A stretch of 56,689 nucleotides of DNA. Source: an uncultured Burkholderiales bacterium. GTDB lineage: Bacteria > Pseudomonadota > Gammaproteobacteria > Burkholderiales > Burkholderiaceae. Below the pieces are notes generated by a model. It did not search any database. It had not been told where the DNA came from and saw nothing but the letters and a program-made list of their open reading frames with translations. Where the stretch lies: assembly GCA_937891045.1 (NCBI GenBank), contig CALBEV010000032.1:1-56689 (forward strand). Reading direction: 5' to 3'. The translations under genes were made by a program, and so were the position numbers. Positions 14,267-35,695 of this stretch are shown here, piece by piece (within the stretch, counting starts at the first letter, position 1; the number at the start of each line of letters is the position of its first letter).

Positions 14267-15697
<1,431 letters not shown>

Positions 15698-15772: not shown

Positions 15773-16387
15773 ATGAAATTGATAGGTGCAGTGACCAGCC
15801 CGTATGTGCGCAAAGTGCGCATCGTCATGGCCGAGAAGAAACTCGAATACCAATTCATTCTTGAAGATGTGTGGGCCGCCAACACCACCATCGTGCAATC
15901 CAACCCCTTGGGCAAAGTGCCATGCTTGGTCATGGAAGGCGGCGAGGCCTTGTTCGACTCACGCGTCATCGTCGAGTACCTGGACACTTTGTCACCGGTG
16001 GGCAAACTGATTCCCCAAAGTGGCCGTGAACGCACCGAGGTGAAAACCTGGGAAGCTTTGGCCGATGGCTTGCTGGACGCCGCCATCACAGCTCGCTTGG
16101 AGGCGCATTGGGTGGGTCGCTCGGAAAGCGAACGCAGCCAAGTTTGGATTGATCGCCAACTGGGCAAGGTGCACGACAGCTTGGTGGCCATGGGCAAAGG
16201 CTTGGAAGAAAAAGCGTTTTGCACCGGCAACCACATGAGCTTGGCTGACATTGCCGTGGGCTGTGCGTTGGGTTATTTGGATTTCCGCTTTCCCAACATC
16301 GATTGGCGCGGTGCGCATCCCAACCTCGACCGCTTGCATGAGAAGCTGATGCAGCGGGCCAGTTTTGTGGAAACGCTCCCCAACTGA
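15773..16387 (+). CDS. Glutathione S-transferase family protein (YibF-like)
   Basis: This is a 204-residue GST. The N-terminal thioredoxin-like domain shows TSPYVRKVRI (active-site region), NPLGKVPCLV (cis-Pro) and DSRVIVEYLD (glutathione-binding Ser-containing motif), followed by an all-helical C-domain with SLADIAVGCALGYLDFR. The pattern resembles the YibF subgroup. The substrate cannot be told from sequence. It is divergent from purB and a single-gene unit, followed by the palindromic element at 16417-16490. Confidence 0.85.
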   Translation: MKLIGAVTSPYVRKVRIVMAEKKLEYQFILEDVWAANTTIVQSNPLGKVPCLVMEGGEALFDSRVIVEYLDTLSPVGKLIPQSGRERTEVKTWEALADGLLDAAITARLEAHWVGRSESERSQVWIDRQLGKVHDSLVAMGKGLEEKAFCTGNHMSLADIAVGCALGYLDFRFPNIDWRGAHPNLDRLHEKLMQRASFVETLPN

Positions 16388-16515: not shown

Positions 16516-16965
16516 TCAGCTGTTGACTCTGTTCTTCAGCCAGCGCATCAAGCTGCCCACCAGCGGGAACTTCTCGTACATCTCTTCTGCTGCGTCCCAG
16601 TAGTCGCGGTGCAGGTCAATGCGCCACACGCCGTCAGCGCCTTGCTTGAACATCAAATGCGAGCCGCCGCGAACACATTGATCAACACCGCGCTGCATGG
16701 TTTTGAAGCGGAACAAAAAATCCCACACCACAAAACACTGCTCGCCTTGCACGATGCGGGTGGTTACTACAAAGCGGGGGTTCTCAAGCGCCTCGAACAT
16801 GTGCTGAAAAATATGCTGCACCTCATTCAAGCCTTGCACTTCTTTGAACGGGTCTTTGAAGCGCACCTCGGGGGTGTACCAGTCGTGCAGTTGCGGCAGA
16901 TGGCTGGGCTGCAGGTGTTCAAACAGGTCGATGATCTCGTGCACACGTTGTTCAGGCATGCTCAT
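16516..16965 (-). CDS. NTF2-like/SnoaL-like protein
   Basis: This 149-residue protein has an NTF2-like fold pattern: an N-terminal helix pair (EQRVHEIIDLFEHL), then LHDWYTPEVRFKDPF and late strands ending in WRIDLHRDYWD. Such proteins are small pocket enzymes or binding proteins, often next to short-chain dehydrogenases in cfa/DUF1365 clusters. It is the last gene of the minus-strand lipid operon, 15 bases after the SDR. ATG 16965 follows GGAGACC. The specific reaction is unknown. Confidence 0.7.
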   Translation of the reverse strand: MSMPEQRVHEIIDLFEHLQPSHLPQLHDWYTPEVRFKDPFKEVQGLNEVQHIFQHMFEALENPRFVVTTRIVQGEQCFVVWDFLFRFKTMQRGVDQCVRGGSHLMFKQGADGVWRIDLHRDYWDAAEEMYEKFPLVGSLMRWLKNRVNS

Positions 16966-16980
16966 GCAGGGTCTCCAAGT

Positions 16981-17763
16981 TCACATGCGGGTGGCGCGGC
17001 GCACCAGCGGGAAATACCAACGGTAGGGCAAGACCCGCAGCAGTTGCAGCCAGCGGGTGAAGCGCTTGGGGAAGTGGATTTCAAACACGCCCTCACGCCA
17101 GCCTTGCAGCATGTGTTGCGAGGCTTGCGCAGGCGTCAAGAGGGCTGGCATCTCGAATTTATTTTGCGAGGTGAGCGGTGTGGCGACAAAGCCGGGGTTG
17201 ACCACGCTCACACCAATGCCGATGTCTTGCAAGTCCATGTAGAGGGCTTCACTCAAGTTGTTGAGCGCCGCTTTGGTGGGGCCATAGGCCAGGCTTTGCG
17301 GCAAACCCCGATAGCCCGCCACACTGGAGATGAAACTCAGGTGGCCGCTTTGCTGTTGCAGCATGAAGGGCAACACCGCGTCGAGCAACAACAAAGCGCC
17401 GTCGTAGTTCACCAGCCAATGCTTTTGCATCTCGGGCAGGGCATAGCGTTCGGCGCGTTGGGCCTTGTAATAACCGGCGCAATACACCACCACATCCAAG
17501 CCTTGCTGCGCATGCAGTTGTTGGGCCGCGGCCTTCATGGCCGCCGCATCGGTCACATCCAAAGGCAGGGCGATGCTGCCCGGATGCGACGCCACAAATT
17601 CGTCGAGCAGCGCGGCTTGTCGGGCTGAGACACACACTTTGGCGCCTGCGGCATGCAGGGCTTGCGCACAGGCCAAGCCAATGCCACTGGACGCACCCAC
17701 CAACCAGACACTGCGACCGCGCCAGTCGGTGATGGGGGTGTTCAGGGGTTTGAAAAAAGCCAT
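16981..17763 (-). CDS. Short-chain dehydrogenase/reductase
   Basis: This is a 260-residue classical SDR. The nucleotide motif is GASSGIG near residue 25, and the catalytic residues are Ser in SFISSVAG and the YxxxK of AYGPTKAAL. The C-terminus ends in a hydrophobic/basic stretch (LLRVLPYRWYFPLVRRATRM), compatible with membrane association. ATG 17763 is used; a TTG at 17772 would overlap the DUF3833 stop (TTGA), so translation is probably coupled. Within this cluster it likely acts on a lipid or fatty-acyl substrate, by inference. Confidence 0.85.
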   Translation of the reverse strand: MAFFKPLNTPITDWRGRSVWLVGASSGIGLACAQALHAAGAKVCVSARQAALLDEFVASHPGSIALPLDVTDAAAMKAAAQQLHAQQGLDVVVYCAGYYKAQRAERYALPEMQKHWLVNYDGALLLLDAVLPFMLQQQSGHLSFISSVAGYRGLPQSLAYGPTKAALNNLSEALYMDLQDIGIGVSVVNPGFVATPLTSQNKFEMPALLTPAQASQHMLQGWREGVFEIHFPKRFTRWLQLLRVLPYRWYFPLVRRATRM

Positions 17764-17768
17764 GGCGC

Positions 17769-18305
17769 TCAAGCCCGCTTGGTGAAGGACAGCGTGACCT
17801 CGCCCAAGAAGATGCCGAACTTGCTCATGCTGGCTTTGTTGAGCATGACGCGTTCACTCATGAGGTACATCCAGTCGTCAAACTGCACATGCCAAACCTG
17901 ACCATCCACTGGTAGCGCCAAGGTGTAGGCCCAATTGAAGGCGTTGCCTCGTGTGCGGCCACTGGCTTGGCCCACCACATCATCGGCGCGGCCCACATAG
18001 CGGCCCTCGCCTTGGTGGGTGAGTCGCCAAATCCGTTTTTGTGTGGTGCCGTCCGAATACACAAAGTCTTCGTCCAACACGCCTTCCTCGCCCTTCCAAC
18101 TGCAGTTCATGACGACGGTGAAACTTTTCACCACTTGGCCCGAGCGGTCGGTGAACACGCCCCACGCATCAACCACGCCATTGAAGTACTGGCGCAAATC
18201 CAGCACGGGTTCGGTTTGAATGTGCTTGTCCAGCGATGGACTGGCGCAGCCCACCGTGGCCAAGGCGGCGGCAGCGGCAGAAGAGAGCATCAAGCGACGT
18301 TTCAT
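17769..18305 (-). CDS. DUF3833 lipoprotein
   Basis: This 178-residue lipoprotein has a signal ending ATVGC (lipobox Cys near 20). The body carries DUF3833 features: LRQYFNGVVDAWGVFTDRSG, NCSWKGEEGVLDEDFVYSDG and a late FDDWMYLM segment. DUF3833 proteins recur with cfa, DUF1365 and FAD oxidoreductases in stress-inducible operons; the biochemical role is unknown. Its start overlaps the MFS stop by four bases (ATGA). Confidence 0.85.
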   Translation of the reverse strand: MKRRLMLSSAAAAALATVGCASPSLDKHIQTEPVLDLRQYFNGVVDAWGVFTDRSGQVVKSFTVVMNCSWKGEEGVLDEDFVYSDGTTQKRIWRLTHQGEGRYVGRADDVVGQASGRTRGNAFNWAYTLALPVDGQVWHVQFDDWMYLMSERVMLNKASMSKFGIFLGEVTLSFTKRA

Positions 18306-19588
18306 GGGGGAACCTCAGCAGCGTTGAAATGGGAAGGAGATTTGTACAGCAGCCACCAAGCAGCGGCTTTGAGCAAACAGGGCAACAAGCCATAAGCCAG
18401 GCTCAAGGCCAATAAGGCCGGTGCGTCTTGGGCGCCCGCAGAATAGCCCAAAGCTTGCAACAAGGGCAGGCTGACACCGGCAGCCAGTGCCAGGTTGAAT
18501 TTGCTGGCAACTTGCCACCAACCAAAGTAGGCGCCGGGCGGGCTGCTTTGCGCATCAGGGCGTTGCAACAAGCCATTGAGCAAAGCCCCCGGCGCAATCA
18601 GGTCCGAACCCAGCGCCACGCCAGACAAGATGCAGATGGTCAGAAACGACAACTCGTCACCGGCCGACAAGGCCAGCGTCCAGATGAACACCGCGATGGC
18701 CAAACCCATGCCCCACAGCCAACAGCGGCGCAAACCCCAGCGGGCCATGGCCCGCAACCACAAGGGCATGGACAGCGCAGCGGCGATGAAATAAGCCGCC
18801 ACAAACACCGTGGTTTGCGCATTGCTCATTTGCAATCGGTCTTGCACGAAAAACAAAATCAGCGTGGCAGGCACCGCAGACGCGATGCCATTGAGCATGA
18901 AGACTTGCAGCAAGCGGCGAAAGCCCACATGGCCCCAAGGCAGCAACAATTGGCGCCACAGCGAACCACTGTTGACCGCAGCAACCACCGTGGGGCGTGG
19001 TGCCCACCACCATGCCCACAAGCCCAGCGCCAACAACAGCACAAACACGGTGACCAAGACCGGCAAGCCCCACAAGCCCGGCAACACCGACGCGCTGATG
19101 AAGCCCAGCAGCCCCAAGCCTTCGCGCCAACCGACCAAGCGGCTGCGCTCGGTGTTGTCACCTGCAATGCCTGCGCCCCAGGCTTGCAAGGCGATGTTCA
19201 AAAAACTGTAGGCCAGGTAGGCGCACAACAACAACACCGTCATCACCACCAACAAGGCGTCCATGGTGAGCGTGGGCCCCAACAACCATTGCGGGAAAAA
19301 CAGCCAAATGAAAGACAGTGCCAACACCATCCCGGCCAACAGGCAGCGCCGAAGCAGCGTGGCCGCACCTTTGACCAACAAGCCATCGACCGCATGACCG
19401 ATGAGCGGATCGAGCAAGCCATCGAGCAAGCGCACCACAAACAGCAAGCCCCCTAAGAGACCCAGGGACAGGCCAAAGTTGGTGGCCACGTGGTGCGGCC
19501 AAACCATGTACAAAGGCAAGGCCACAAAAGCCAGTGGCAGCGCGGGCAAACCCAAGCGTGCCAGGGCCAGCGAGGACTGACGTGTCAT
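18302..19588 (-). CDS. MFS transporter (GPH-like, 12 membrane helices)
   Basis: This is a roughly 428-residue polytopic protein with about 12 hydrophobic segments. RLLDGLLDPLIGHAVD early in the protein is the hallmark of the GPH (glycoside-pentoside-hexuronide cation symporter) branch. Start 19588 is chosen because it overlaps the cfa stop as ATGA; the open frame upstream is extra. MFS/GPH proteins of this kind often accompany cfa-DUF1365 clusters, where a lipid or precursor rather than a sugar may be the cargo. The substrate is not known. Confidence 0.8.
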   Translation of the reverse strand: MTRQSSLALARLGLPALPLAFVALPLYMVWPHHVATNFGLSLGLLGGLLFVVRLLDGLLDPLIGHAVDGLLVKGAATLLRRCLLAGMVLALSFIWLFFPQWLLGPTLTMDALLVVMTVLLLCAYLAYSFLNIALQAWGAGIAGDNTERSRLVGWREGLGLLGFISASVLPGLWGLPVLVTVFVLLLALGLWAWWWAPRPTVVAAVNSGSLWRQLLLPWGHVGFRRLLQVFMLNGIASAVPATLILFFVQDRLQMSNAQTTVFVAAYFIAAALSMPLWLRAMARWGLRRCWLWGMGLAIAVFIWTLALSAGDELSFLTICILSGVALGSDLIAPGALLNGLLQRPDAQSSPPGAYFGWWQVASKFNLALAAGVSLPLLQALGYSAGAQDAPALLALSLAYGLLPCLLKAAAWWLLYKSPSHFNAAEVPP

Positions 19589-20817
19589 GCGGGTTTGCGC
19601 AAAGTGAACTGCACCACGTCGGTGTTGCGTTCGGCGAAGGCGGCTTCGCAATACGCCAAGTAGAACAACCAGGTGCGCTCAAACTGGGTGTCAAAACCCA
19701 AGTTGGGCAAATCGGCTTGCACTTGCAAAAACGCGACACGCCAACGCCGCAGTGTTTCGGCATAGTCTTGGCCGAATGCAAATTCGTCGATGACTTGCAA
19801 ACCTGCTGCTTGGGCTTGTGCTTTGAACGCGCTGGTGCTGGGCAAGAAGCCGCCGGGGAAGATGTACTGCTGAATGAAGTCGGTGCCCATGGCGTAGCGC
19901 TCAAACAAGGCGTCGTCGATCACGATGCTTTGAATGCAGGCCTGGCCACCGGGCTTCAACAAACGCGCAATGGTTTGGAAATACGTGGGCCAGTAATCAC
20001 GGCCCACGGCTTCGATCATTTCAATGGAGCAAATGGCGTCATAGGGACCGTCGTTGGTGTCGCGGTAGTCTTGCAAGCGCAAATCGGCATGCATGCTTTG
20101 GGCATGCAAACGCTCGGTGGCATAGGCGAGTTGCGCTGGGCTCAAGGTGATGCCGGTCACATGGGCGCCCATGTCGCGGATGGCGATTTCCGCCAAACCG
20201 CCCCAGCCGCAGCCAATCTCCAACACGCGTTGGTTGGGTCCTTGGCCGACCCCAGCCATGCGCAGCGCACGGCGCACCTTGGCTTGTTGCGCGGCCGCCA
20301 GTTCCTGGCTGTGGTCGCCATCAAACCAAGCGGAGGAATAGGTCATGGTGTGGTCTAACCACAGGCTGTAAAACGCGTTGCCCAAGTCGTAATGCGCATG
20401 GATGTTTTTGCTGCTGTTGGCCTTGGTGTTGCGCCGCATCCAATGCCGCAACTGGTAAGCCAAGCGGCCCCACCAGGTGCCAAAAATCATGTCGTCCATG
20501 GGCCGCCGGTTGACCACCAAAAGCTGCAACAAAGCCGTGAGGTCGGGCGTGTCCCAGTCACCCGCGATGAAGCTTTGTGCAAAGCCAATGTCGCCCGAGC
20601 GCAGTGCCGCCCCAAACACCTGCCAGTTGTGCAGTTGCAAAGTGGCTTGTGGGCCGCTCGTGTGGCCAAAGAAAATGGTTTGACCATCGGGCAGTTGCAA
20701 ATGCAAGCCGCCCACCTGCAAAGACTGCAACATGCGCAGAGCGCGTTTGGCTGGGGAAGGCACTTGTTTGCCCAACAGGGGCAAAGGCAAATTGGAAGTG
20801 TTCAAAGTGGTGGTCAT
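19585..20817 (-). CDS. cfa: Cyclopropane-fatty-acyl-phospholipid synthase family methyltransferase
   Basis: Members transfer a methylene or methyl group from SAM to unsaturated acyl chains of membrane phospholipids. The protein (about 410 residues) has the family motif HYDLGNAFYSLWLD...MTYSSAWF and the SAM loop VLEIGCGWGG about 40 residues later, then a lipid-domain C-terminus. ATG 20817 is used; a TTG at 20832 would give TTGA overlap with DUF1365. The clustered DUF1365 and FAD oxidoreductase are the usual partners of Cfa-like enzymes that make modified (cyclopropane, methylated or furan) fatty acids. Which of these is made is open. Confidence 0.92.
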   Translation of the reverse strand: MTTTLNTSNLPLPLLGKQVPSPAKRALRMLQSLQVGGLHLQLPDGQTIFFGHTSGPQATLQLHNWQVFGAALRSGDIGFAQSFIAGDWDTPDLTALLQLLVVNRRPMDDMIFGTWWGRLAYQLRHWMRRNTKANSSKNIHAHYDLGNAFYSLWLDHTMTYSSAWFDGDHSQELAAAQQAKVRRALRMAGVGQGPNQRVLEIGCGWGGLAEIAIRDMGAHVTGITLSPAQLAYATERLHAQSMHADLRLQDYRDTNDGPYDAICSIEMIEAVGRDYWPTYFQTIARLLKPGGQACIQSIVIDDALFERYAMGTDFIQQYIFPGGFLPSTSAFKAQAQAAGLQVIDEFAFGQDYAETLRRWRVAFLQVQADLPNLGFDTQFERTWLFYLAYCEAAFAERNTDVVQFTLRKPA

Positions 20818-20828
20818 GTCAAAGGCAT

Positions 20829-21602
20829 TCAAGCGTCAGCTCGCGAAGTAAATTCAGTGGGCGGTGCGGGTTTGCGCACCAAGGGGACACGTTTGAGCCA
20901 CAGGCCCAAGGCTTGCCAGTGGATGCGCCATATGACGCCCAGGCTGTGCATCGGGTGTTGCCAAAATGCGCGGCGCAACCCAGCAGCGGTGAGTGGCTGC
21001 AGCTGGCCGCTGACGCTGGTGCGGATCAGCATGCCGCCGTCATCGCTGTGGTCGATGCGCACCACGGTGCGCGGTGTGTCGCCTTCGGTGCGCATGAAGC
21101 GAAATGCATAACGGCCGTGCACTTCGCAAAACGGTGACACATAAAAAACCTTGTCGGCTTGCATGGTTTGGCCGTAGTGCGGTGCGGGCAGCACATAGCA
21201 ATGGCGTTCGCCAAACGTGTTGTTCACCTCGGCCACGATGGCGGCCAAGCTGTTGTCAGCCCGGTGGCAATACCAAAAACTCACCGGCTTGAACACATAG
21301 CCCAGGACCCTCGCATAGGTGTGCAGCCACACCTCGCCTTGGGCGTCCGAGATGCCTTGCGCAGCCAGCAATTCGTCCAACCAAGCCAAAGCGCCACCGG
21401 CTTCGGGGCCACGGCCATCGCCATGGTCTTGGTCGTGAAAAGAAATCCAAGCGCGGCGGTTCACCGCCAAGTCGCCCGCACCATGCAAAGCCATGTGGCG
21501 CATCGGCAGCATGACAAACCAGGTGGGATAGGCAAAGCCATGCTTTGATGGCCGCAGCCGCGTGTGCCGCACCTGGCCGGTGCCGATCATCGGCGTGTTC
21601 AA
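20829..21602 (-). CDS. DUF1365 protein
   Basis: This is a roughly 257-residue DUF1365 protein. Family features are VRHTRLRPSKHGFAYPTWFV, ISFHDQDHGDG, the LGYVFKPVSFWYCH core and FYVSPFC. The TTG start at 21602 is preferred because AGAGG lies seven bases upstream and it overlaps the previous stop (TTGA); ATG 21590 is the alternative. DUF1365 co-occurs with Cfa-type methyltransferases and FAD amine-oxidase-like proteins in photo-oxidative-stress operons. No catalytic role is proven to my knowledge. Confidence 0.88.
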   Translation of the reverse strand: MNTPMIGTGQVRHTRLRPSKHGFAYPTWFVMLPMRHMALHGAGDLAVNRRAWISFHDQDHGDGRGPEAGGALAWLDELLAAQGISDAQGEVWLHTYARVLGYVFKPVSFWYCHRADNSLAAIVAEVNNTFGERHCYVLPAPHYGQTMQADKVFYVSPFCEVHGRYAFRFMRTEGDTPRTVVRIDHSDDGGMLIRTSVSGQLQPLTAAGLRRAFWQHPMHSLGVIWRIHWQALGLWLKRVPLVRKPAPPTEFTSRADA

Positions 21603-22900
21603 ACGACGACCTCTTGGTGAATCAGGGTGAGCACACCATTGGCGGCAGCCTTGCCCGCTTTGAAACCATCTTCGTGAAAGCCATAGCCCATCCAAGCCCC
21701 GGCAAACCAAGTGTGTTGCTGGCCTTGCAGTGGCGCGAGTTGGCGTTGCGCTTGAATCGCGTTCAGGTCAAACACCGGATGGTCGTATTCGAATTCACCC
21801 AGCACCTGTTGTTCATCGATGGTCGTGATGGGGTTCAAAGACACGAACACATCTTGGTTGAACGGCAGCGGCTGTAATTTATTCAGCCAGTAGTGCAAAC
21901 ACACATGGGCGTTTTCGGTGTGGGCGGCACTGCGCTCATAGTTCCAAGCGGCCCAGGCCAAGCGCTTGTTCGGCATCACGCTGGTGTCGGTGTGCAGCAC
22001 GGCGCGGTTGGCTTGAAAACGAATTTGGCTGAGCACGTCTTGCTCGGGTGCGCTGGGCTGGCTCAGCAGGCGCAGCGCTTGATCCGCATGGGTGGCGATG
22101 ATGACTTCATCAAACGCTTCCACACCTTGGGCGGTGAGCAAGCGCACGCCGTCTTCATCCCGCTGAATGCCTTGCACCGGCGCGTTCAAACGCTTGTCGT
22201 CAATGTGCTGGGTGATGGCTTGCACATAGTGCTTGGAGCCGCCTTGCACTGTGAACCACTGTGGCCGGTTGTTCACCTGCAAGAGGCCGTGGTTGTCACA
22301 AAACCGCACCATGGTGGCAGCGGGAAATTGCAGCATTTGCGAAGTGGGACAACTCCAAATGCAGCCCAGCATGGGCAGCAAATAACCATCACGGAAGGTG
22401 TTGCCAAACCCATGTGTGTCTAAAAAATCTTGCAGCGGTTGCATCAAAGCACCGTCGTTGTGCGCTTGGGCCAGCGTGGTGGCCAGTTTGTTGAATCGCA
22501 CAATGTCAGCCAACAAGCCCCAAAACTTCGGGCGCAACAAGTTGCTGCGCTGCGCGAACACGCTGTTGAGGTTGGCGCCGTTCCATTCGAGTTTTTGGCC
22601 ACTGTGGGGCCAAGTGGACTGCACCGAGAAGGACATGTCCGAGTGCGCGGTTTGCACACCCAACTGCTGGAACAAATCAATCAGGCCGGGGTAGGTGCGT
22701 TCGTTGTAAACCAAGAAGCCGGTGTCTACGCCGTGGGTGGTGTTGCCTTGTGGGCCTGGCAAAGTGATGTCGACCGTGTGGCTGTGGCCGCCGAAATAGC
22801 TGCCCGCTTCAAACAGGCTGATGCGGGCGTGGCCCCGCAGATGGTGCGCCGCCGACAAACCGGCAATGCCCGAGCCGACGATGGCCACACGCTTGTGCAT
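21599..22900 (-). CDS. FAD-dependent amine-oxidase-like oxidoreductase
   Basis: This 433-residue flavoprotein has the dinucleotide-binding motif IVGSGIAGLSAAHHL at the extreme N-terminus and the following FEAGSYFGGHSHT, typical of NAD(P)/FAD amine-oxidase-like proteins. A second FAD contact lies near the C-terminus (WFAGAWMGYGFHEDG). These proteins pair with DUF1365 and Cfa and are candidates for fatty-acyl desaturation or oxidation. The ATG is one base after the glutathione peroxidase stop, and the stop overlaps the DUF1365 start. Confidence 0.87.
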   Translation of the reverse strand: MHKRVAIVGSGIAGLSAAHHLRGHARISLFEAGSYFGGHSHTVDITLPGPQGNTTHGVDTGFLVYNERTYPGLIDLFQQLGVQTAHSDMSFSVQSTWPHSGQKLEWNGANLNSVFAQRSNLLRPKFWGLLADIVRFNKLATTLAQAHNDGALMQPLQDFLDTHGFGNTFRDGYLLPMLGCIWSCPTSQMLQFPAATMVRFCDNHGLLQVNNRPQWFTVQGGSKHYVQAITQHIDDKRLNAPVQGIQRDEDGVRLLTAQGVEAFDEVIIATHADQALRLLSQPSAPEQDVLSQIRFQANRAVLHTDTSVMPNKRLAWAAWNYERSAAHTENAHVCLHYWLNKLQPLPFNQDVFVSLNPITTIDEQQVLGEFEYDHPVFDLNAIQAQRQLAPLQGQQHTWFAGAWMGYGFHEDGFKAGKAAANGVLTLIHQEVVV

Positions 22901-22901
22901 G

Positions 22902-23498
22902 TCAGGGGGTTTGCGCGGCCACGAGTTTGTCCACTTCGCTCAAAAAGCCTTTGCTCAAGGGGTCGGTGGTGCTGTTGAAACTTTGCACCTTCTGGCCGTC
23001 GCGGCTGATCAGGTATTTGTAAAAGTTCCACTTGGGCGCGGTGTCGGTGAGTTTGGTGAGTTGCTTGAACAAGGGTGAGGCCTCGCTGCCACGCACCGTG
23101 GTTTTGCTGAACATGGGGAATTTCACACCATAAGTGTTCTCGCAGAAGTCGGCAATCTTTTTGTTGTTGTCGGGCTCTTGTGAAAAATCGTTGGATGGAA
23201 AACCCAACACCACCAAGCCCTTGTCTTTGTAGCGGGCGTGCAATTCTTCCAAGCTTTTGTACTGGGGCGTGAAGCCGCAAAAGCTGGCCGTGTTGACCAC
23301 CACCACCACTTTGCCCGCGTATTGACACAGGTTTTGGGGCTTTTCGTCTTGCAAGCGATCCGCGGTGTGTTGCAACACGGCAGGGCAAGCCGCGGTTTTG
23401 CTGGTGTCTGCCCAAGCTGTGCTGCCCCAAGCAAGACACGCCAAGAGGGCAGAGTAAGACAAAAAGCGGACAGGGTTTCGGGTTTGTGTGGATTTCAT
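22902..23498 (-). CDS. Secreted glutathione-peroxidase family protein
   Basis: This is a thiol peroxidase of the GPx family reducing (lipid) hydroperoxides. The active-site Cys is in NTASFCGFTPQY, and the Gln/Trp parts of the catalytic set lie in FPSNDFSQEP and WNFYKYL. An N-terminal signal peptide (...LACLAWGSTAWAD) predicts a periplasmic location, unusual for GPx. A 30-residue segment with two Cys precedes the core. ATG 23498 is used; ATG 23510 in frame is also possible. It is the first gene of the minus-strand operon, one base from the FAD gene. Confidence 0.88.
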   Translation of the reverse strand: MKSTQTRNPVRFLSYSALLACLAWGSTAWADTSKTAACPAVLQHTADRLQDEKPQNLCQYAGKVVVVVNTASFCGFTPQYKSLEELHARYKDKGLVVLGFPSNDFSQEPDNNKKIADFCENTYGVKFPMFSKTTVRGSEASPLFKQLTKLTDTAPKWNFYKYLISRDGQKVQSFNSTTDPLSKGFLSEVDKLVAAQTP

Positions 23499-23510
23499 AA
23501 GTTCAATCAT

Positions 23511-23577
23511 GCGTTAATTTCAGGGAAGTTGTCTATGACATCTCAAAAAACCATCCAATACCACTGACAATCTTCCC
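23511..23577. promoter_or_regulatory. Divergent promoter region of the lipid operon and the B12/MerR regulator
   Basis: These 67 bases separate the glutathione peroxidase gene (minus) from the regulator (plus), so both promoters must lie here or in the gene starts. The palindrome TGTCTATGACA at 23530-23540 is a candidate operator. TTGTC at 23529 and TGACAA at 23565-23570 form a wider inverted pair. MerR-type regulators usually bind palindromes in long-spacer promoters, so this fits, but I cannot assign -35 and -10 boxes with confidence. Confidence 0.4.
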
Positions 23578-24513
23578 ATGAATCCAAACATGCCACATTC
23601 CCAGCCCCATTTGTCCATCGCTGCCGTGGAGCGCGACACCGGCATCGGCAAAGACACCTTGCGGGTTTGGGAGCGCCGATATGGCTTTCCCCAGCCACTG
23701 CGCGACGAGTTCGATGAACGCAGTTATCCGCTGTCCCAAGTGGAGAAATTGCGCACCATCAAACGCTTGCTCGACCAAGGCTTTCGCCCAGGCAAGGTGG
23801 TGGCCATGCCGCTGGAGGATTTGCAGCGCATCAGCATGGCTGAATTGTCCATGCCCAAACGCGTGTCAGCGCACACGAACAGCGCGATCGATCTGCATCT
23901 TTTTTTGGACTGCTTGCATGTCCATGACCTGACAGGTTTGCGCGGGCGCTTGCACCAAGCTGTTGTCGATTTGGGCGCCGCCAAGTTTGTCACCGATTTG
24001 GTGGCCCCCTTGAGCGCCCTCATCGGCGAGACCTGGATACGTGGCGAACTTGAAGTGTTTGAAGAGCACCTCTACACCGAATGCGTCACCACGGTGCTGC
24101 GCCAAACCATTTATGAGCAAACGTTGACCATTCCAGCCCACCCACCGGTGGTTTTGCTCACCACGTTTCCGCAAGAACAGCATGCCCTGGGCTTGCTGAT
24201 GGCCGAATGCTTGCTGGCATTGAACGGCTGTCGCTGCATTCCGCTGGGCGTGCAAATGCCCGTGGCGGATATCGCCAAAGCAGCGCATGCCCACCAAGTT
24301 AACTTGGTGGCCTTGAGTTTCAGCAGCAGCTTGAATGCCAACCATGTGCTTGACGGCTTGAAAGAATTGCGTCAATTGCTGCCCGCGACCACAGGCATTT
24401 GGGCTGGCGGTGGCAATGCTGTGTTGCAAAGACGCCCACCCGAGGGCGTGGTGGTGCGCGACTTGGAAGACATCGGCCAACAGGTGCAGGCATGGCGTTC
24501 ACGCCAAGCTTGA
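23578..24513 (+). CDS. MerR-family regulator with B12-binding domain (CarH/LitR type)
   Basis: This is a 311-residue transcription factor. Residues 11-80 are a MerR winged helix (LSIAAVERDTGIGKDTLRVWERRYGFP). A four-helix segment (about 100-180) and a cobalamin-binding Rossmann domain (about 190-305) follow. W153, E163 and H164 reproduce the W-x9-EH motif that encloses the adenosyl group in CarH photoreceptors. H202 in ExHxxG is the expected lower cobalt ligand. The residue after W153 is Ile, not the His seen at CarH position 132. CarH/LitR proteins repress target promoters in the dark and release them in light. Divergence from the operon makes that operon the likely target, by inference. Confidence 0.88.
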   Translation: MNPNMPHSQPHLSIAAVERDTGIGKDTLRVWERRYGFPQPLRDEFDERSYPLSQVEKLRTIKRLLDQGFRPGKVVAMPLEDLQRISMAELSMPKRVSAHTNSAIDLHLFLDCLHVHDLTGLRGRLHQAVVDLGAAKFVTDLVAPLSALIGETWIRGELEVFEEHLYTECVTTVLRQTIYEQTLTIPAHPPVVLLTTFPQEQHALGLLMAECLLALNGCRCIPLGVQMPVADIAKAAHAHQVNLVALSFSSSLNANHVLDGLKELRQLLPATTGIWAGGGNAVLQRRPPEGVVVRDLEDIGQQVQAWRSRQA

Positions 24514-24560: not shown

Positions 24561-27245
24561 TCAGTGAAAGACAGCTGACCAGACGGCTTGGATGGCGCTG
24601 CTGTGACCCTGCATAGGGGCGTCGTCGCTGCGGCCCACTTGTTCATCCAGCCGTGCTTGGTGCTGCAAGTGGCGCAGTTCCCGGTAGGCGTCAGCGGCCG
24701 CCACCCCCAAGCCTTTGGGCAATAAACCCGCGGTTTCGGCGCGATGGAGCAAAGCGATGTTGCCCATGTTGTCTTGCAAACTGGGGTGGGCATGGGCATG
24801 CGCCAAGACCAAAAATTGCACCGCAAACTCCAGGTCAATCATGCCGCCGGCACTGTGCTTGAAGTCGAACAAGCCAGCGGGCACGCTGTGGGCGGTGCGC
24901 ATTTTTTCTCGCATCGCCATGATGTCCAAGGCCAGTTGTGCCAAGTCACGCGGCGCACACAACACTTGGCGGCGCACCGCTTCAAATTGCGCACCCAGCT
25001 GCCTGTCGCCAACGCAAAACCGCGCACGGGTCATGGCTTGGTGTTCCCAGACCCAAGCACTGTTGCTGCCCCTTTGTGCTTGGTACTCGGCAAAGGCATC
25101 CATGCTGCTGACCAACAAACCGGCGCTGCCATTGGGCCGCAGCGCGGTGTCGATTTCGTAAACATCTCCTTCACCGGTTTTCAGGGTCAACCACTGGATC
25201 AATTTGCGGGCAAACAGGGCGTAGATTTCAGGTGCTTGCGGATGCTCGTCTTGGAACACAAACACGATGTCCAAATCGCTGCCGTAGCCCAGCTCTTTGC
25301 CGCCCCACTTGCCATAGCCAATGACCGCAAAGCAAGGTGTTTCACGGTGCCTTGTTTTGACCAGTGGCCAGGCCCAGGAGGCCGCCACTTCAACGATGGC
25401 GTCAGCCAAGGCGCTCAAGTCATCGGCCACCTGCTCGACCGACAAGTGGCCTTCCAGGTCGCGCGTCAAGGTGAGAAACAACTCGGCATGGTGGGCGCGG
25501 CGCAGCAGATTCAACAGGCTTTCATCGTCATCGGCTTGGGCCGATTGCAAAGCCTGGTAGCGGGTTTGCAGGTTTTGTTTGAACAGGGGCGCGTCAAAGC
25601 GCTCGTTCAACATGCTGGGGTCGGCCAGCTCGTCGATCACGCCCGGGTGTTTCATCAGGTACCGCGCTGGCCAACGCGCCGCGCCCAACAAGCGCAGCAG
25701 CTGCGCATGCACCGAGGGACGCTCTAGCAACAAGGCCAAGTAGGTTTCGCGCCGCAGCAGCGGCTCCATCCAATCGCTCCAGCGCACGGCCGCGGTTTCA
25801 CTGATGACGCCTTGGGTGACCCACGATTGGGTGCGTTGCACCAGCTTCAACAAGCGCTGCAAGGCTTCATCGCGCAGGGCCAGCACACGCGGCAGTTCCG
25901 CCCAGCGGGCAATGCGGCCATGCAGCTCGGGGCTCAAGCCCTCGAGCAGCATCTCAAAGTCGGTGGGTGTGCTGCTTTGGGCCGTGTTCGGACTGTCGTC
26001 TTCGTTGCGCAGCAAGCGCTCGAACTCTTGTGCTACCGCGTCGCGGTGTCGTTGCAGCTTTGCTTGCAAGCCCGTGTTGTCGGGCAGCCCCAAGGACTGT
26101 GCAATCCAATGCAAATCCTCGTTGTTCGTGGGCAGTTGGTGGGTTTGTTGGTCGTCCAAATACTGGATGCGGTGCTCGACTTGGCGCAAAAACACATAAG
26201 CCTCTTGCAGGGCCAGCGCAGTCTCGGCGGGCATCAGTCGCGCTTGCACCAAGGCCGTCAAGGCTTGCAGCGTGGGGCGCATGCGCAGCTCGGGGAATTG
26301 ACCACCGCGCACCACTTGCAAGAGCTGCACCGTGAACTCGATTTCACGAATGCCACCGCGCCCCAGCTTCACATCGTTGGCGCGTTCGGGCCGCGTGGCA
26401 CTGCGGCGTTGCGATTGCAAGCGGATTTGCTGGTGCAAGACCCGCAGCGCCTCGAACACGTTGTAGTCGAGGTAGCGGCGAAACACAAACGGCGTGATGA
26501 TGTCGCGCAAAGCAGGCACCTGGTCGATGCAGGCGGCGGGTGCCACCACCCGCGCCTTGAGCCAGGCCAAGCGCTCCCACTCGCGGCCCTGCACTTGGAA
26601 ATACTCTTCCAGTGCGGCCAGCGACACCACGCTGGGCCCGGATTCGCCATTGGGGCGCAGTGCCAAATCCATGCGAAACACAAAGCCGTGCTCCGTGGTG
26701 TCGCCAATCAGGGTGTAGAGCTGTTTCACCACCCGATCAAAAAACACCTGGTTGTCGACCACGCCGCTGCCATCAGCCAAACCTTGTGTCTGACCCTCTT
26801 CGTCATAGATGTAGATCAGGTCGATGTCGCTGGACACGTTCAATTCGGCCGCGCCCAGCTTGCCCATGCCCACGATCCACAGTTGCGCAACATTCCCTTG
26901 CGGTGTGCGTGGCAAGCCATGGCGCAGCGCCACGCGTTGCGTGGCTTCTTGCAAAGCCATGTCCAGACTGAACTCGGCCAACCAGGTCATGGTTTGAGTG
27001 ACCGTTTGCAACGGCGCTTGCTGTTCGCAGTCCAGCACCACCAGCCGCTCCATCACCAGCTGCCGCAACACACGCAAAGCATCTGCAGGATCAGACCATT
27101 CGATTTGCAAACTGGAGAAACATCTGGCCAACATCTCGGGGTTGGGTGTCCCGGCTGGCAACTGCAACAGGTGTGCCGCATAGCGACGGCGCAAACGCTG
27201 CACCAGTCGAGAGCCTTCAGCGCGGGGATCGAGGGAGTTGTTCAT
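24561..27245 (-). CDS. glnE: Bifunctional glutamine synthetase adenylyltransferase/adenylyl-removing enzyme
   Basis: GlnE adds and removes AMP on glutamine synthetase in response to PII and glutamine. The 894-residue protein carries two nucleotidyltransferase domains: DIDLIYIYDEEG in the N-half (deadenylylase) and SDLDIVFVFQDEHP in the C-half (adenylyltransferase), each with the catalytic Asp pair. GMGKLGAAELN and GYGKWGGKELG are the matching glycine motifs. The length is close to the E. coli enzyme. It converges on the B12 regulator and is divergent from yhdP. Confidence 0.95.
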   Translation of the reverse strand: MNNSLDPRAEGSRLVQRLRRRYAAHLLQLPAGTPNPEMLARCFSSLQIEWSDPADALRVLRQLVMERLVVLDCEQQAPLQTVTQTMTWLAEFSLDMALQEATQRVALRHGLPRTPQGNVAQLWIVGMGKLGAAELNVSSDIDLIYIYDEEGQTQGLADGSGVVDNQVFFDRVVKQLYTLIGDTTEHGFVFRMDLALRPNGESGPSVVSLAALEEYFQVQGREWERLAWLKARVVAPAACIDQVPALRDIITPFVFRRYLDYNVFEALRVLHQQIRLQSQRRSATRPERANDVKLGRGGIREIEFTVQLLQVVRGGQFPELRMRPTLQALTALVQARLMPAETALALQEAYVFLRQVEHRIQYLDDQQTHQLPTNNEDLHWIAQSLGLPDNTGLQAKLQRHRDAVAQEFERLLRNEDDSPNTAQSSTPTDFEMLLEGLSPELHGRIARWAELPRVLALRDEALQRLLKLVQRTQSWVTQGVISETAAVRWSDWMEPLLRRETYLALLLERPSVHAQLLRLLGAARWPARYLMKHPGVIDELADPSMLNERFDAPLFKQNLQTRYQALQSAQADDDESLLNLLRRAHHAELFLTLTRDLEGHLSVEQVADDLSALADAIVEVAASWAWPLVKTRHRETPCFAVIGYGKWGGKELGYGSDLDIVFVFQDEHPQAPEIYALFARKLIQWLTLKTGEGDVYEIDTALRPNGSAGLLVSSMDAFAEYQAQRGSNSAWVWEHQAMTRARFCVGDRQLGAQFEAVRRQVLCAPRDLAQLALDIMAMREKMRTAHSVPAGLFDFKHSAGGMIDLEFAVQFLVLAHAHAHPSLQDNMGNIALLHRAETAGLLPKGLGVAAADAYRELRHLQHQARLDEQVGRSDDAPMQGHSSAIQAVWSAVFH

Positions 27246-33949: not shown

Positions 33950-35695
33950 ATGAGCTTTGTCATCGTGCTGGCCGCGCCAGTGTTTTTCCTGCTGATCTTG
34001 GCCGAATGGCTGTGGGGCCTGCGCTTGGCGCGACAAGGCCAGGCCAACGCCCAAAGCTATCGGCTGGACGACGCCATCAGCAGCATTTCGCTGGGCATGA
34101 TCAGCCAAATCAGTGCCATCTTCACCCGCTTGCTGCGCATCGGTATCTACACCTTGGTGTTCGAGCAACTCAGCTTGTTCCCCGAGCAAGCCTGGTGGAA
34201 CACTTGGTACGGCTATGTGCTGGCGCTGGTGTTCTACGACCTCTGCTACTACTGGTTTCACCGCGTCAGCCACGAGGTGGCTTGGTTTTGGGCGGGCCAC
34301 GCGGTGCACCACCAAAGCCACCACTACAACCTCTCGACGGCGCTGCGCCAGTCCACTTCTGGTGCGCTGCTGGGCTGGATTTTTTACATCCCGATGGCGC
34401 TGGCCGGTGTGCCGCCGCTGGTGTTTGGCATCGTGGCGCTCATCGACTTGCTCTATCAATTCTGGGTGCACACCGAGCATGTGGGCCGCTTGGGCTGGTT
34501 TGACCGCTGGTTTTGCTCGCCGTCCAACCACCGGGTGCACCACGCCGTGAACGACGCCTATGTGGACCGCAACTACGGCGGCATTTGGGTGGTGTGGGAC
34601 CGCCTCTTTGGATCGTTTAAAGAAGAAGACCCCAAGCAGCCCTGCGTTTACGGCACCCGCACGCCGCTGCACAGCTGGGACCCGCTGTGGGCGAATGTGC
34701 AGGTGTACGCCGCCTTGGCGCACGACAGCTGGCACGCCCAACGCTGGCAAGACAAGCTGATGGTTTGGCTGCGGCACCCCGGCTGGCGCCCGGCCGATGT
34801 GGCCGCGCGTTTCCCCAAACCGGACTTCAATTTGCTGCAGTTCACGCCCTACCAACCGCGCCAAACCCGCAGCGTGCTGGTGCAAGCCACGGCCTGGTTT
34901 GTGCTGTTGCTGGGTGCCACCATGAAGCTGTTGTGGCACATGGACGACATGGTTTGGGGCCAAGCCGCCACCTGCGTGCTGGCGGTGAGTGCCGGTTTGT
35001 GGGGTGTCAACACCTTGCTGCAAAACCGCATCAGTGGCGTGATGTGCGCTTTTGTGCAACTGGCCGCTTTGGCGGTGGCCAGCGATGTCTGCGGCTGGCA
35101 AGAGCTGTTTCATATGGCCAAACCGCTGGCCATGTTGGCGCTGATCTACGAGGCCTGGTCGGCCAGCCACATGCCGCCGCGCATCCAACGTTGGTTGGTG
35201 TGGGCGCTGGGTTTGTCTTGGGTGGGCGATGTGCTGTTGCTCTACCCGGCCATGTTTTTACCGGGCTTGCTGTCGTTCTTGGCCGCGCATGTGTGCTTCA
35301 TCGTGTTGCTGAGCCGCGACGCGCCATGGCTACACAGCCGCCGCGCCTTGGCGGTGTTCATCTCGGTGGCGGCGCTGGTGTTTGTGGTGCTGGACCAAAA
35401 CGGTTTGCCGCCCGAGCTGCGCCTGCCCGTGGCCGCCTATGTGCTGGTGATTGCCACCATGGCCGCGCAAGCCTGGGGCCGCGCCAAGCACCTGGGCAGC
35501 GCAGGCAGCCGCTGGGTGGCCTGGGGCAGCGTGCTGTTCATGCTGTCAGACGCTTTGCTGGCGCTGGACAAATTCGTCAGCCCCCTGCCGCTGGCCGGTT
35601 TGTGGGTGCTGGCGAGTTATTACTTGGCGCAAGGCTTGATCGTGCAGGGCAGGTTGAGTTTGGAGCCTTACCCCAAGGCCTTCAAAGCAGCTTGA
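33950..35695 (+). CDS. Fatty acid hydroxylase/sterol desaturase domain fused to YhhN-like domain
   Basis: This is a 581-residue membrane protein. The N-half (about 1-300) has the diiron hydroxylase histidine boxes HRVSH (104-108), HAVHHQSHH (117-125) and HRVHH (194-198) with HTEH at 174, like the fatty acid hydroxylase / alkylglycerol monooxygenase group. The C-half (about 375-575) is multi-helical with GDVLLLYP and LFMLSDALLALDKF, the YhhN/TMEM86 (lysoplasmalogenase) pattern. AGMO and lysoplasmalogenase relatives both cleave ether-type lipids, so a joint role in ether-lipid breakdown is possible but inferred. The 3' end overlaps the HTH gene tail to tail by 28 bases. Confidence 0.8.
   Translation: MSFVIVLAAPVFFLLILAEWLWGLRLARQGQANAQSYRLDDAISSISLGMISQISAIFTRLLRIGIYTLVFEQLSLFPEQAWWNTWYGYVLALVFYDLCYYWFHRVSHEVAWFWAGHAVHHQSHHYNLSTALRQSTSGALLGWIFYIPMALAGVPPLVFGIVALIDLLYQFWVHTEHVGRLGWFDRWFCSPSNHRVHHAVNDAYVDRNYGGIWVVWDRLFGSFKEEDPKQPCVYGTRTPLHSWDPLWANVQVYAALAHDSWHAQRWQDKLMVWLRHPGWRPADVAARFPKPDFNLLQFTPYQPRQTRSVLVQATAWFVLLLGATMKLLWHMDDMVWGQAATCVLAVSAGLWGVNTLLQNRISGVMCAFVQLAALAVASDVCGWQELFHMAKPLAMLALIYEAWSASHMPPRIQRWLVWALGLSWVGDVLLLYPAMFLPGLLSFLAAHVCFIVLLSRDAPWLHSRRALAVFISVAALVFVVLDQNGLPPELRLPVAAYVLVIATMAAQAWGRAKHLGSAGSRWVAWGSVLFMLSDALLALDKFVSPLPLAGLWVLASYYLAQGLIVQGRLSLEPYPKAFKAA

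Follow-up and report, generated by a model that had tools for sequence, protein, structure and literature searches.

What does a CarH/LitR-type regulator control when it faces genes for membrane lipids instead of pigments? The question is raised by a locus in the window, the whole 56,689-nucleotide stretch of Burkholderiales DNA that was analyzed, where such a regulator lies divergent from eight closely spaced genes (16516–23510, − strand). The initial annotation described a MerR regulator with a cobalamin domain facing an eight-gene operon, and Pfam searches confirm this, with all nine genes present on the strands it gave. The tight packing also holds: operon neighbors overlap by 4 bases or are separated by 1–15 bases with the start codons chosen (TTG was taken for the DUF1365 and Cfa-like genes).

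23578..24513, + strand: CarH/LitR-type regulator, 311 aa; MerR HTH, four-helix B12-binding_2, and Rossmann B12-binding domains (Pfam PF13411, PF02607, PF02310)
23529..23541, unstranded: predicted operator palindrome TTGTCTATGACAT; consensus TTGTC-NNN-GACAA
23506..23535, − strand: candidate operon promoter TAGACA-18-CATGAT; −35 falls within the predicted operator
22902..23510, − strand: exported Cys glutathione peroxidase-like protein (GPx); PF00255, E 5e-33; start perhaps 23498
21599..22900, − strand: FAD oxidoreductase, UfaD-like; Amino_oxidase PF01593, E 2e-18, and NAD_binding_8; gene context as in PMC7380195
20829..21602, − strand: DUF1365 protein, UfaO-like; PF07103, E 4e-78
19585..20832, − strand: Cfa/CMAS-like methyltransferase, UfaM-like; PF02353, E 2e-75; S/A/Q at E. 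coli Cfa C139/H240/H266
18302..19588, − strand: MFS_2 (GPH-type) membrane transporter; PF13347, E 1.5e-39
17769..18305, − strand: DUF3833 protein, probable lipoprotein; PF12915, E 2.7e-68; Cys following a hydrophobic leader, read from the sequence
16981..17763, − strand: short-chain dehydrogenase (SDR); PF00106, E 3e-38
16516..16965, − strand: SnoaL/NTF2-like protein (SnoaL_2); PF12680, E 1.5e-12

The reading favored here, to which we give a probability of about 0.56, is that the regulator is an AdoCbl photoreceptor–repressor that releases furan-lipid synthesis in the light. In the dark, the regulator would bind AdoCbl, oligomerize, and occupy the intergenic palindrome, shutting off the promoter of the operon and probably that of its own gene as well. 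Light would break the Co–C bond and take the regulator off the DNA, and the operon would be transcribed. The UfaM-, UfaD-, and UfaO-like enzymes would then methylate, desaturate, and oxidize phospholipid acyl chains to give furan fatty acids, which would scavenge singlet oxygen and radicals. Lipid repair or movement could be aided by the GPx-like protein, which is exported, and by the accessory proteins of the membrane.

Operon enzymes and predicted product

By family, gene order, and residues, the core of the operon appears to correspond to ufaD–ufaO–ufaM, the furan fatty acid pathway of an FAD desaturase, a DUF1365 oxygenase, and a Cfa-like methylase (PMC7380195). The set is complete in the operon. 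The earlier suggestion that these proteins make modified fatty acids is supported (PMC7380195).

That suggestion allowed for cyclopropane or furan acids. In the Cfa-like enzyme, C139, H240, and H266 of E. coli Cfa are replaced by S, A, and Q, and E239, I268, and Y317 are retained, whereas paralogous cyclopropane synthases keep the lost residues (7 genes entered this residue comparison twice, one locus having been retrieved two ways); we take C139, E239, H266, I268, and Y317 to be the bicarbonate-site residues, with H240 adjacent. H240A and H266Q occur together in 21 of 21 operon Cfa-like enzymes, ChrR-linked ones included, and not in Cfa paralogues, from which the operon enzymes form a separate clade. 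Little about the enzyme suggests a canonical cyclopropane synthase, and its operon and residues suggest a UfaM-like protein. Because these active-site residues are lost, furan acids are expected, and cyclopropane acids were rejected as the main expected product.

Control might operate as proposed with a product other than a furan fatty acid, such as an acyl chain with a methyl branch or another kind of ring. This is the most probable of three alternatives considered, although itself unlikely. It draws on the fact that the pathway assignment comes from family, gene order, and residues, and on the behavior of Halomonas ufaM in E. coli, which gave a furan intermediate with cyclic acids also detected (PMC12089945). 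The presence of the whole UfaD/UfaO/UfaM trio argues against it, as do the two substitutions that set the operon enzymes apart from Cfa paralogues.

The GPx-like protein was initially annotated as a periplasmic enzyme for lipid-peroxide removal, placed first in the operon. It belongs to PF00255, its sequence shows a hydrophobic stretch at the N-terminus, and the nearest solved relative is HYR1, but the usual resolving Cys and Gln are missing. The gene is indeed at the head of the operon, although the ATG at 23498 may be its start rather than 23510, and it is the operon's least constant member (31 of 47 relatives).

B12 motifs of the regulator

The MerR HTH, B12-binding_2, and B12-binding domains are all detected by Pfam, PF02607 and PF02310 barely above their cut-offs (E 1.4e-8 for PF02310, the Rossmann B12 domain). 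The best solved-structure match is Thermus CarH (TtCarH 5c8d, E 2e-25), and TtCarH is also the top Foldseek match (5c8e, E 1.2e-15) of an AF2 model with pLDDT 84. CarH is defined by two motifs, Wx9EH and a cobalamin-ligand motif (PMC8156234). The regulator keeps the first, at the residues initially annotated (W153, E163, H164). The second, ExHx2Gx41SxV/Tx22-27GG, is found as E200, H202, G205, S247, and GG277-278, with spacings of 41 and 27 and one conservative change, Ser249 where Val or Thr is usual. W153, E163, H164, and H202 are conserved positions, and the further homologues, 81 of 81, all share TtCarH W131, E141, H142, E175, and H177. A CarH-type regulator with both B12 motifs intact is supported, and it may be expected to bind B12, respond to light, and repress.

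Some features set the protein apart. Ile occupies the TtCarH His132 position (A, M, L, V, I, S, or T in the homologues, and His in 0 of 81), which rejects a Thermus-type bis-His switch. Three of the four SignatureFinder elements (GxxW, EH, GxxH, GxxxP) are present, with GxxH reading QxxH. The score against NCBIfam NF052513 (CarH equivalog) is 114.7 bits, below the cut-off of 400, so the regulator falls outside that model's narrow group and is filed just as a CarH/LitR homologue. Class II LitR identity was also rejected, since it requires that no Rossmann B12-binding domain be recognizable and PF02310 is present.

The replaced histidine gives footing to a second and slightly less probable alternative, that the regulator reports B12 status and not light, repressing when AdoCbl is plentiful and releasing at shortage. 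The B12 motifs are intact while the photoswitch residue is replaced throughout the homologues; His132 was found important for tetramer break-up, although an earlier report cited there disagreed, and TtCarH H132A is mostly tetrameric even in light (PMC10442372). However, CtMerR is photoreactive despite an Arg at this position (PMC11796333), every homologue keeps Wx9EH, which caps the adenosyl group, and the rhodopsin link described below, together with the light or singlet-oxygen role of such operons elsewhere, points to light. Least probable of the three is a vestigial B12 domain in a regulator that answers to a different photosensor or a partner protein, in the manner of class II LitR with a short LOV protein or Myxococcus CarA with CarS: class II LitR control ufaM without B12 (PMC9758184) and CarA–operator binding needs none (PMC8156234), but class II proteins lack a recognizable Rossmann domain (PMC9758184) and CarA lacks Wx9EH (PMC8156234), both kept by this regulator family, and a Pfam scan of ten window proteins found no LOV domain.

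Linkage, predicted operator, and the link to rhodopsin

For comparison across relatives, 80 loci were taken as the best matches, of at least 531 confirmed, to a close-homologue alignment, with kin of the window over-represented. The linkage goes beyond chance. Where 9.9 kb or more lie upstream of the regulator (47 relatives), the FAD, DUF1365, and Cfa-like genes are on the divergent strand in 46; the operon is absent upstream of the regulator in three relatives with at least 3.6 kb there (L049, L051, L053). A fairer sample comes from 100 family genomes drawn separately: 41 of them bear the regulator, and in 33 of these it lies within 6 kb of DUF1365. In 38 of 59 genomes of this draw DUF1365 is present with no regulator, whose absence was scored as the lack of a match to alignment A1 at E 1e-20. 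All counts are raw, without phylogeny correction. Regulator homologues in Comamonas endophytica and on a Caballeronia plasmid have different neighbor genes.

The palindrome TTGTC-NNN-GACAA is found upstream of the regulator gene, with at most one mismatch, in 69 of 81 regions (the 80 relatives and the window), where base shuffles expect 0.3. In genomes lacking the regulator, 20 of the 38 loci were covered, and the palindrome precedes the operon at only 1 of these 20. Its conservation backs control of the regulator–GPx intergenic region. The candidate promoter TAGACA-18-CATGAT is the sole match of a promoter consensus scan (shuffles mean 0.2); by the analysis's own score it ranks second to TTGAGA-18-TGAAAT just upstream. 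Promoter registers vary: the palindrome overlaps or adjoins the predicted operon −35 in many regions, 12 relatives share the register of the window, and, apart from these two, 8 regions have their best −35 some 50–55 bases distant. A second palindrome site lies 62–64 bp from the first in 13 of 68 regions, and the window is without one. The CarH operators described to date consist of direct repeats of 11 bp (PMC8156234), whereas, judged from the conserved site alone, the site here is a 13-bp inverted repeat in place of the tandem nAnnTnnACAn of Thermus and Bacillus.

Among four rhodopsin-bearing Polynucleobacter-group genomes, the palindrome precedes the rhodopsin gene in two, and exactly those two have the regulator, which suggests a link to light independent of the operon. 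Across 101 Polynucleobacter-group genomes the pattern occurs in 32, near the level of a reversed control, and eight further loci there, two of which surrounded a non-palindromic match, show no rhodopsin or operon gene and come from genomes without the regulator; the pattern alone thus says little in genomes that lack the regulator. An operator at photolyases was rejected for the one photolyase type covered, with no palindrome in promoter position at 30 Limnohabitans-group loci (best-scoring matches from the 60 of 61 genomes having one). One-mismatch sites there comprise five within the gene at one fixed place and a sixth 366 bp upstream. Of 60 palindrome sites examined in 200 family genomes, 22 lie closest to a gene for a regulator, an FAD protein, or a GPx; a crude ORF picker found none of these at the other 38, and a wider regulon is therefore not established. 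Single sites neighbor a lipocalin, an Rrf2 regulator, an EAL protein, and an FAD enzyme, which are not claimed as members. Some regulator-less genomes carry a distant ufa-like set adjoining a ChrR-type gene.

The CarH motifs and fold, the palindrome, the linkage, and the ufa trio with its non-Cfa active site, all seen in the sequence, speak for an AdoCbl photoreceptor–repressor, as do the rhodopsin link and the Pseudomonas LitR–ufaM precedent. The absence of His132, QxxH, the NF052513 score, the inverted-repeat operator, DUF1365 without the regulator, and the photolyase result speak against it.

Comparison with known systems

New here are the regulator-linked palindrome, the regulator–DUF1365 linkage, the ChrR-adjoining ufa-like sets, and the palindrome at rhodopsin. 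A broader proposal, held only tentatively, is that a Burkholderiales family of B12 photoreceptors, which uses a palindromic operator and lacks the bis-His residue, controls furan lipids and, in some freshwater Polynucleobacter, the rhodopsin operon, with related ufa sets under either the photoreceptor or ChrR and lipid defense wired to light or light damage. If true, a B12-type LitR would target membrane lipid and not carotenoid (no such case was found in the literature searched), and a photoswitch would work without His132. The operator would allow a sequence-based search for the light regulon in common freshwater bacteria carrying the regulator, and relatives whose lipid sets may answer to light or singlet oxygen would offer a direct route to what furan fatty acids protect against.

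The Thermus thermophilus and Bacillus megaterium CarH proteins share domain order, fold, Wx9EH, and the cobalamin-ligand motif with the regulator; Thermus CarH differs in adjoining carotenoid (phytoene synthase) and photolyase genes and in having His132 (PMC8156234, PMC10442372; L210), and the operators of both differ in being direct repeats (PMC8156234). The Rhodobacter sphaeroides ufaD–ufaO–ufaM enzymes match the operon core, but that pathway is raised in chrR mutants as part of a singlet-oxygen system, the available text reports no GPx, GPH, or DUF3833 set (PMC7380195), and ufaM is located away from ufaD and ufaO (PMC12089945). The Shewanella RpoE2 regulon likewise places an exported GPx (PgpD) and a Cfa-like operon under one photo-oxidative regulator, with the differences that control is by ECF sigma/ChrR and the genes are in separate operons (PMC4336711).

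The closest parallel is Pseudomonas PplR/PmlR, class II LitR with a light-inducible, B12-independent ufaM operon (PMC9758184). Together with R. sphaeroides it supports the initially annotated tie of such operons to singlet-oxygen or light responses (PMC7380195, PMC9758184). The supposition that the set may be undescribed survives in part: a B12-type LitR paired with a lipid operon was not found in the open literature searched, which did not include the two J. Bacteriol. papers closest to the subject, but light-induced ufaM under a B12-independent LitR is published (PMC9758184). PplR/PmlR do not require B12, have an unrecognizable Rossmann B12 domain, and receive light through a short LOV protein; their operator is T(G/A)TACA-N12-TGTA(C/T)A against TTGTC-NNN-GACAA here, and their operon carries phrB, with no GPx named in the available part of the report (PMC9758184). 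The likenesses are a MerR-type LitR near a polycistronic operon with an FAD oxidoreductase, SDR, ufaM, and unknown proteins, and operator placement, with one Pseudomonas site covering the −35 and another falling between the start site and the start codon (PMC9758184). The window locus is a variant of this published arrangement.

A CarH-type regulator facing a probable lipid gene set

The arrangement described in the initial annotation, a MerR/B12 regulator divergent from a tight set of eight genes, is real, and all nine genes lie on the strands it gave. All eight operon members overlap or are separated from their operon neighbours by no more than 15 bases. Both flanks look like ordinary housekeeping genes, with what we take to be purB (14267-15688) and a GST gene (15773-16387, by Pfam) on one side and presumably glnE (24561-27245) on the other.

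Regulator and operon genes in the window (minus-strand genes are operon members)
16516-16965, minus, SnoaL_2
16981-17763, minus, SDR
17769-18305, minus, DUF3833
18302-19588, minus, MFS_2 transporter
19585-20832, minus, Cfa/CMAS-like
20829-21602, minus, DUF1365
21599-22900, minus, FAD oxidoreductase
22902-23510, minus, GPx
23578-24513, plus, MerR/B12 protein (regulator), divergent from the operon

Elsewhere in the window, YhhN (PF07947) and a fatty acid hydroxylase domain (PF04116) are joined in a single 581-aa protein (33950-35695), a further lipid-enzyme fusion. There is also a VapC-like PIN-domain protein (PF01850, 36375-36782) with unrelated genes on either side and a type II/IV secretion ATPase (PF00437, 5805-7511) amid pilus-looking genes.

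The regulator matches Thermus CarH (TtCarH) across both the DNA-binding and B12 domains (E 2e-25). The W-x9-EH residues W153, E163 and H164, singled out in the initial annotation, are conserved along with H202 in a 31-sequence alignment, and all of 81 further homologues share W131, E141, H142, E175 and H177 of TtCarH. Judged by sequence, the protein is a CarH homologue under the published definition, in which both motifs are present (PMC8156234, excerpt). TtCarH is the top solved structure for its AlphaFold2 model (pLDDT 84; 5c8e, E 1.2e-15). In this predicted model the cobalamin domain alone gives TM-scores of 0.74-0.83 (on target) for most entries; full-length chains reach just 0.5-0.6, with rmsd of 15-22, because the two domains are set differently.

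TtCarH position 132, a light-state ligand (PMC10442372, excerpt), is Ile in the window regulator and His in none of the 81 homologues. One of the four SignatureFinder elements (PMC11796333, excerpt) is altered, and the narrow NCBIfam CarH model gives 114.7 bits against a cut-off of 400. CtMerR carries Arg at this position and is photoreactive all the same (PMC11796333, excerpt), so replacement of His132 would change the expected switch and is compatible with a response to light.

Linkage and a predicted operator

Among 47 relatives having 9.9 kb or more of sequence ahead of the regulator, the divergent strand carries FAD oxidoreductase, DUF1365 and Cfa-like genes (the trio) in 46, and SDR in 47, SnoaL in 43, DUF3833 in 40, MFS in 37 and GPx in 31. 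The SDR match at locus L053 is weak, and apart from it this regulator homologue has no other operon genes upstream; two more homologues (L049, L051) have no operon within the shorter stretch of upstream DNA examined. An even draw of 100 genomes from the family of Limnohabitans Jir61 held the regulator in 41 and DUF1365 in 75. DUF1365 occurs in 37 of the 41 regulator-bearing genomes versus 38 of the 59 others (Fisher p 0.004, kinship not corrected), so the operon is common without the regulator too. The two genes lie within 6 kb of each other in 33 of the 41.

The predicted operator between regulator and operon is the palindrome TTGTC-NNN-GACAA. Across the window and 80 relatives (the best 80 of at least 531), it stands 5' of the regulator without mismatch in 42 of 81 and with one mismatch in 27 of 81, against a chance level of 0.3 of 81 from base shuffles of the same regions. 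The window copy, TTGTCTATGACAT (23529-23541), has one mismatch. As a control, regulator-less genomes (those lacking a match to the regulator alignment at E 1e-20; 20 of 38 loci) have the palindrome, with up to one mismatch, in the 400 bp 5' of the operon at 1 of 20. A 15-base form is found in 48 of 200 family genomes and its reversed control in 3 of 200.

Among the regions having a site (at most 68), the -35 of the best predicted operon-ward promoter starts 10-14 bases from the palindrome centre, abutting it, in 17 and 0-4 bases from it, inside the palindrome, in 12. The window candidate TAGACA-18-CATGAT overlaps the palindrome; another, TTGAGA-18-TGAAAT, scored slightly higher by an in-house score. 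A second palindrome copy lies 62-64 bp off in 13 of 68 regions, and the best regulator-ward promoter has its -35 at about 62-64 bp in 22. Known CarH operators are direct repeats (PMC8156234, excerpt) and Pseudomonas LitR sites read T(G/A)TACA-N12-TGTA(C/T)A (PMC9758184, excerpt), so the palindrome is of a type unlike both.

A lipocalin gene in one genome (PF08212, L134:2405-2956) has a perfect palindrome 45 bp away. Operator-like palindromes also stand just 5' of rhodopsin genes at L081:637-1513, L153 and L154 (two Polynucleobacter-group genomes). Polynucleobacter cosmopolitanus has a perfect copy 36 bases ahead of a bacteriorhodopsin-family gene in its longest reading (PF01036, E 2e-45), and next on the same strand is a 310-aa gene that we take to resemble a prenyl synthase. 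Rhodopsins of this type occur in 4 of 61 Polynucleobacter genomes. The palindrome precedes the gene in two (L153, TTGTCTTAGACAA; L154, TTGTCGTAGACAA) and is absent in the other two, and the regulator is present in exactly the two carriers that have it. The L154 site matches the open form only and is missed by the stricter pattern search. The rhodopsin link is a small number, two related genomes, and common descent may explain both palindromes, since their flanks are alike.

Operon enzymes and their likely product

The initial annotation tied the trio to modified fatty acids, either cyclopropane or furan. Its members belong to the families of UfaD, UfaO and UfaM, which jointly convert phospholipid vaccenic acid to the furan acid 9M5-FuFA (PMC7380195, excerpt), and a furan acid is the likelier of those two products. 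E. coli Cfa C139, H240 and H266 give way to Ser, Ala and Gln in the Cfa-like enzyme of the window and in 28 of 28 operon rows of relatives (21 distinct genes); Cys, His and His are retained by five non-operon Cfa paralogues (four of ten genomes searched). At the 20 loci from regulator-less genomes, A240 and Q266 are invariant and residue 139 is Ser in 17, Cys in 2 and Ala in 1. In a tree, these 20 enzymes group with that of the window in a single clade (97/93) that excludes E. coli Cfa and two presumed Cfa paralogues; the deep part of this tree suffers from long branches, and its root is only for drawing. Given the changed residues and the separate clade, a standard cyclopropane synthase is unlikely.

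The GPx-like protein (22902-23510) has the peroxidatic Cys and carries Ser and Asp at the Cys and Gln of yeast HYR1 (FPSNDF versus FPCNQF), leaving neither the resolving Cys nor the Gln in place. The FPS-type motif appears in 40 of 51 GPx matches of relatives; in the other 11, the regular expression landed elsewhere in the protein.

Other wiring and known systems

In 3 of the 20 regulator-less operon loci (L248, L249, L252), a ChrR-type cupin gene, an anti-sigma gene, lies within ~1 kb of a more distant trio. Matches to the sigma E form in print, TGATC-N16-18-CGTAW (PMC5241685, excerpt), lie between trio and neighbour at L248, L249 and L250. At all three loci they face the side opposite the trio, which at L248 and L249 is that of the chrR gene. 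They may therefore serve the chrR-side regulator and do not demonstrate control of the trio. These trios, 36-48% identical to that of the window, are related gene sets next to a different regulator, which falls short of proving that a single orthologous operon changed regulators. For the closer operons of other regulator-less genomes, the only recognised neighbours among the nearest ORFs examined are TetR genes at two loci (L254, L260). In genomes without the regulator, a ferritin-like gene recurs 5' of the operon: at L255:4099-4968 (weak FA_desaturase_2/AurF match), with similar ORFs at L251, L256, L257 and L261. Three loci closely resembling freshwater Burkholderiales ones (L003, L030, L055) come from MAG records titled Bordetella parapertussis, and these titles may be wrong.

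The reading of regulator and operon as a light-controlled lipid set seems mostly sound, with confidence slightly lowered because the sigma E-form sites face away from the trio and the L154 rhodopsin site fits the open pattern only. The suggestion that such control may be undescribed stands in part. Light control of ufaM through LitR is published: in P. mendocina, ufaM is light-induced 25- to 33-fold, along with its neighbours, under a class II LitR together with a LOV protein, without B12, and P. putida ufaM shows similar induction, also without B12 (PMC9758184, excerpt). Among the matches listed, drawn mainly from open literature, none deals with a LitR of B12 type placed over either a ufa operon or a rhodopsin gene, which does not prove absence. 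V. cholerae MerR/ChrR (PMC5241685, excerpt) and Shewanella RpoE2 (PMC4336711, excerpt) are cousins of the window system. The Pseudomonas class II LitR likewise sits over furan-lipid genes (PMC9758184, excerpt); the window regulator differs in being a predicted B12-type sensor. As predicted from sequence, the window system is an instance of the known LitR control of furan-lipid genes. Its new features are a sensor of B12 type, a palindromic operator unlike those known and the absence of the bis-His residue.
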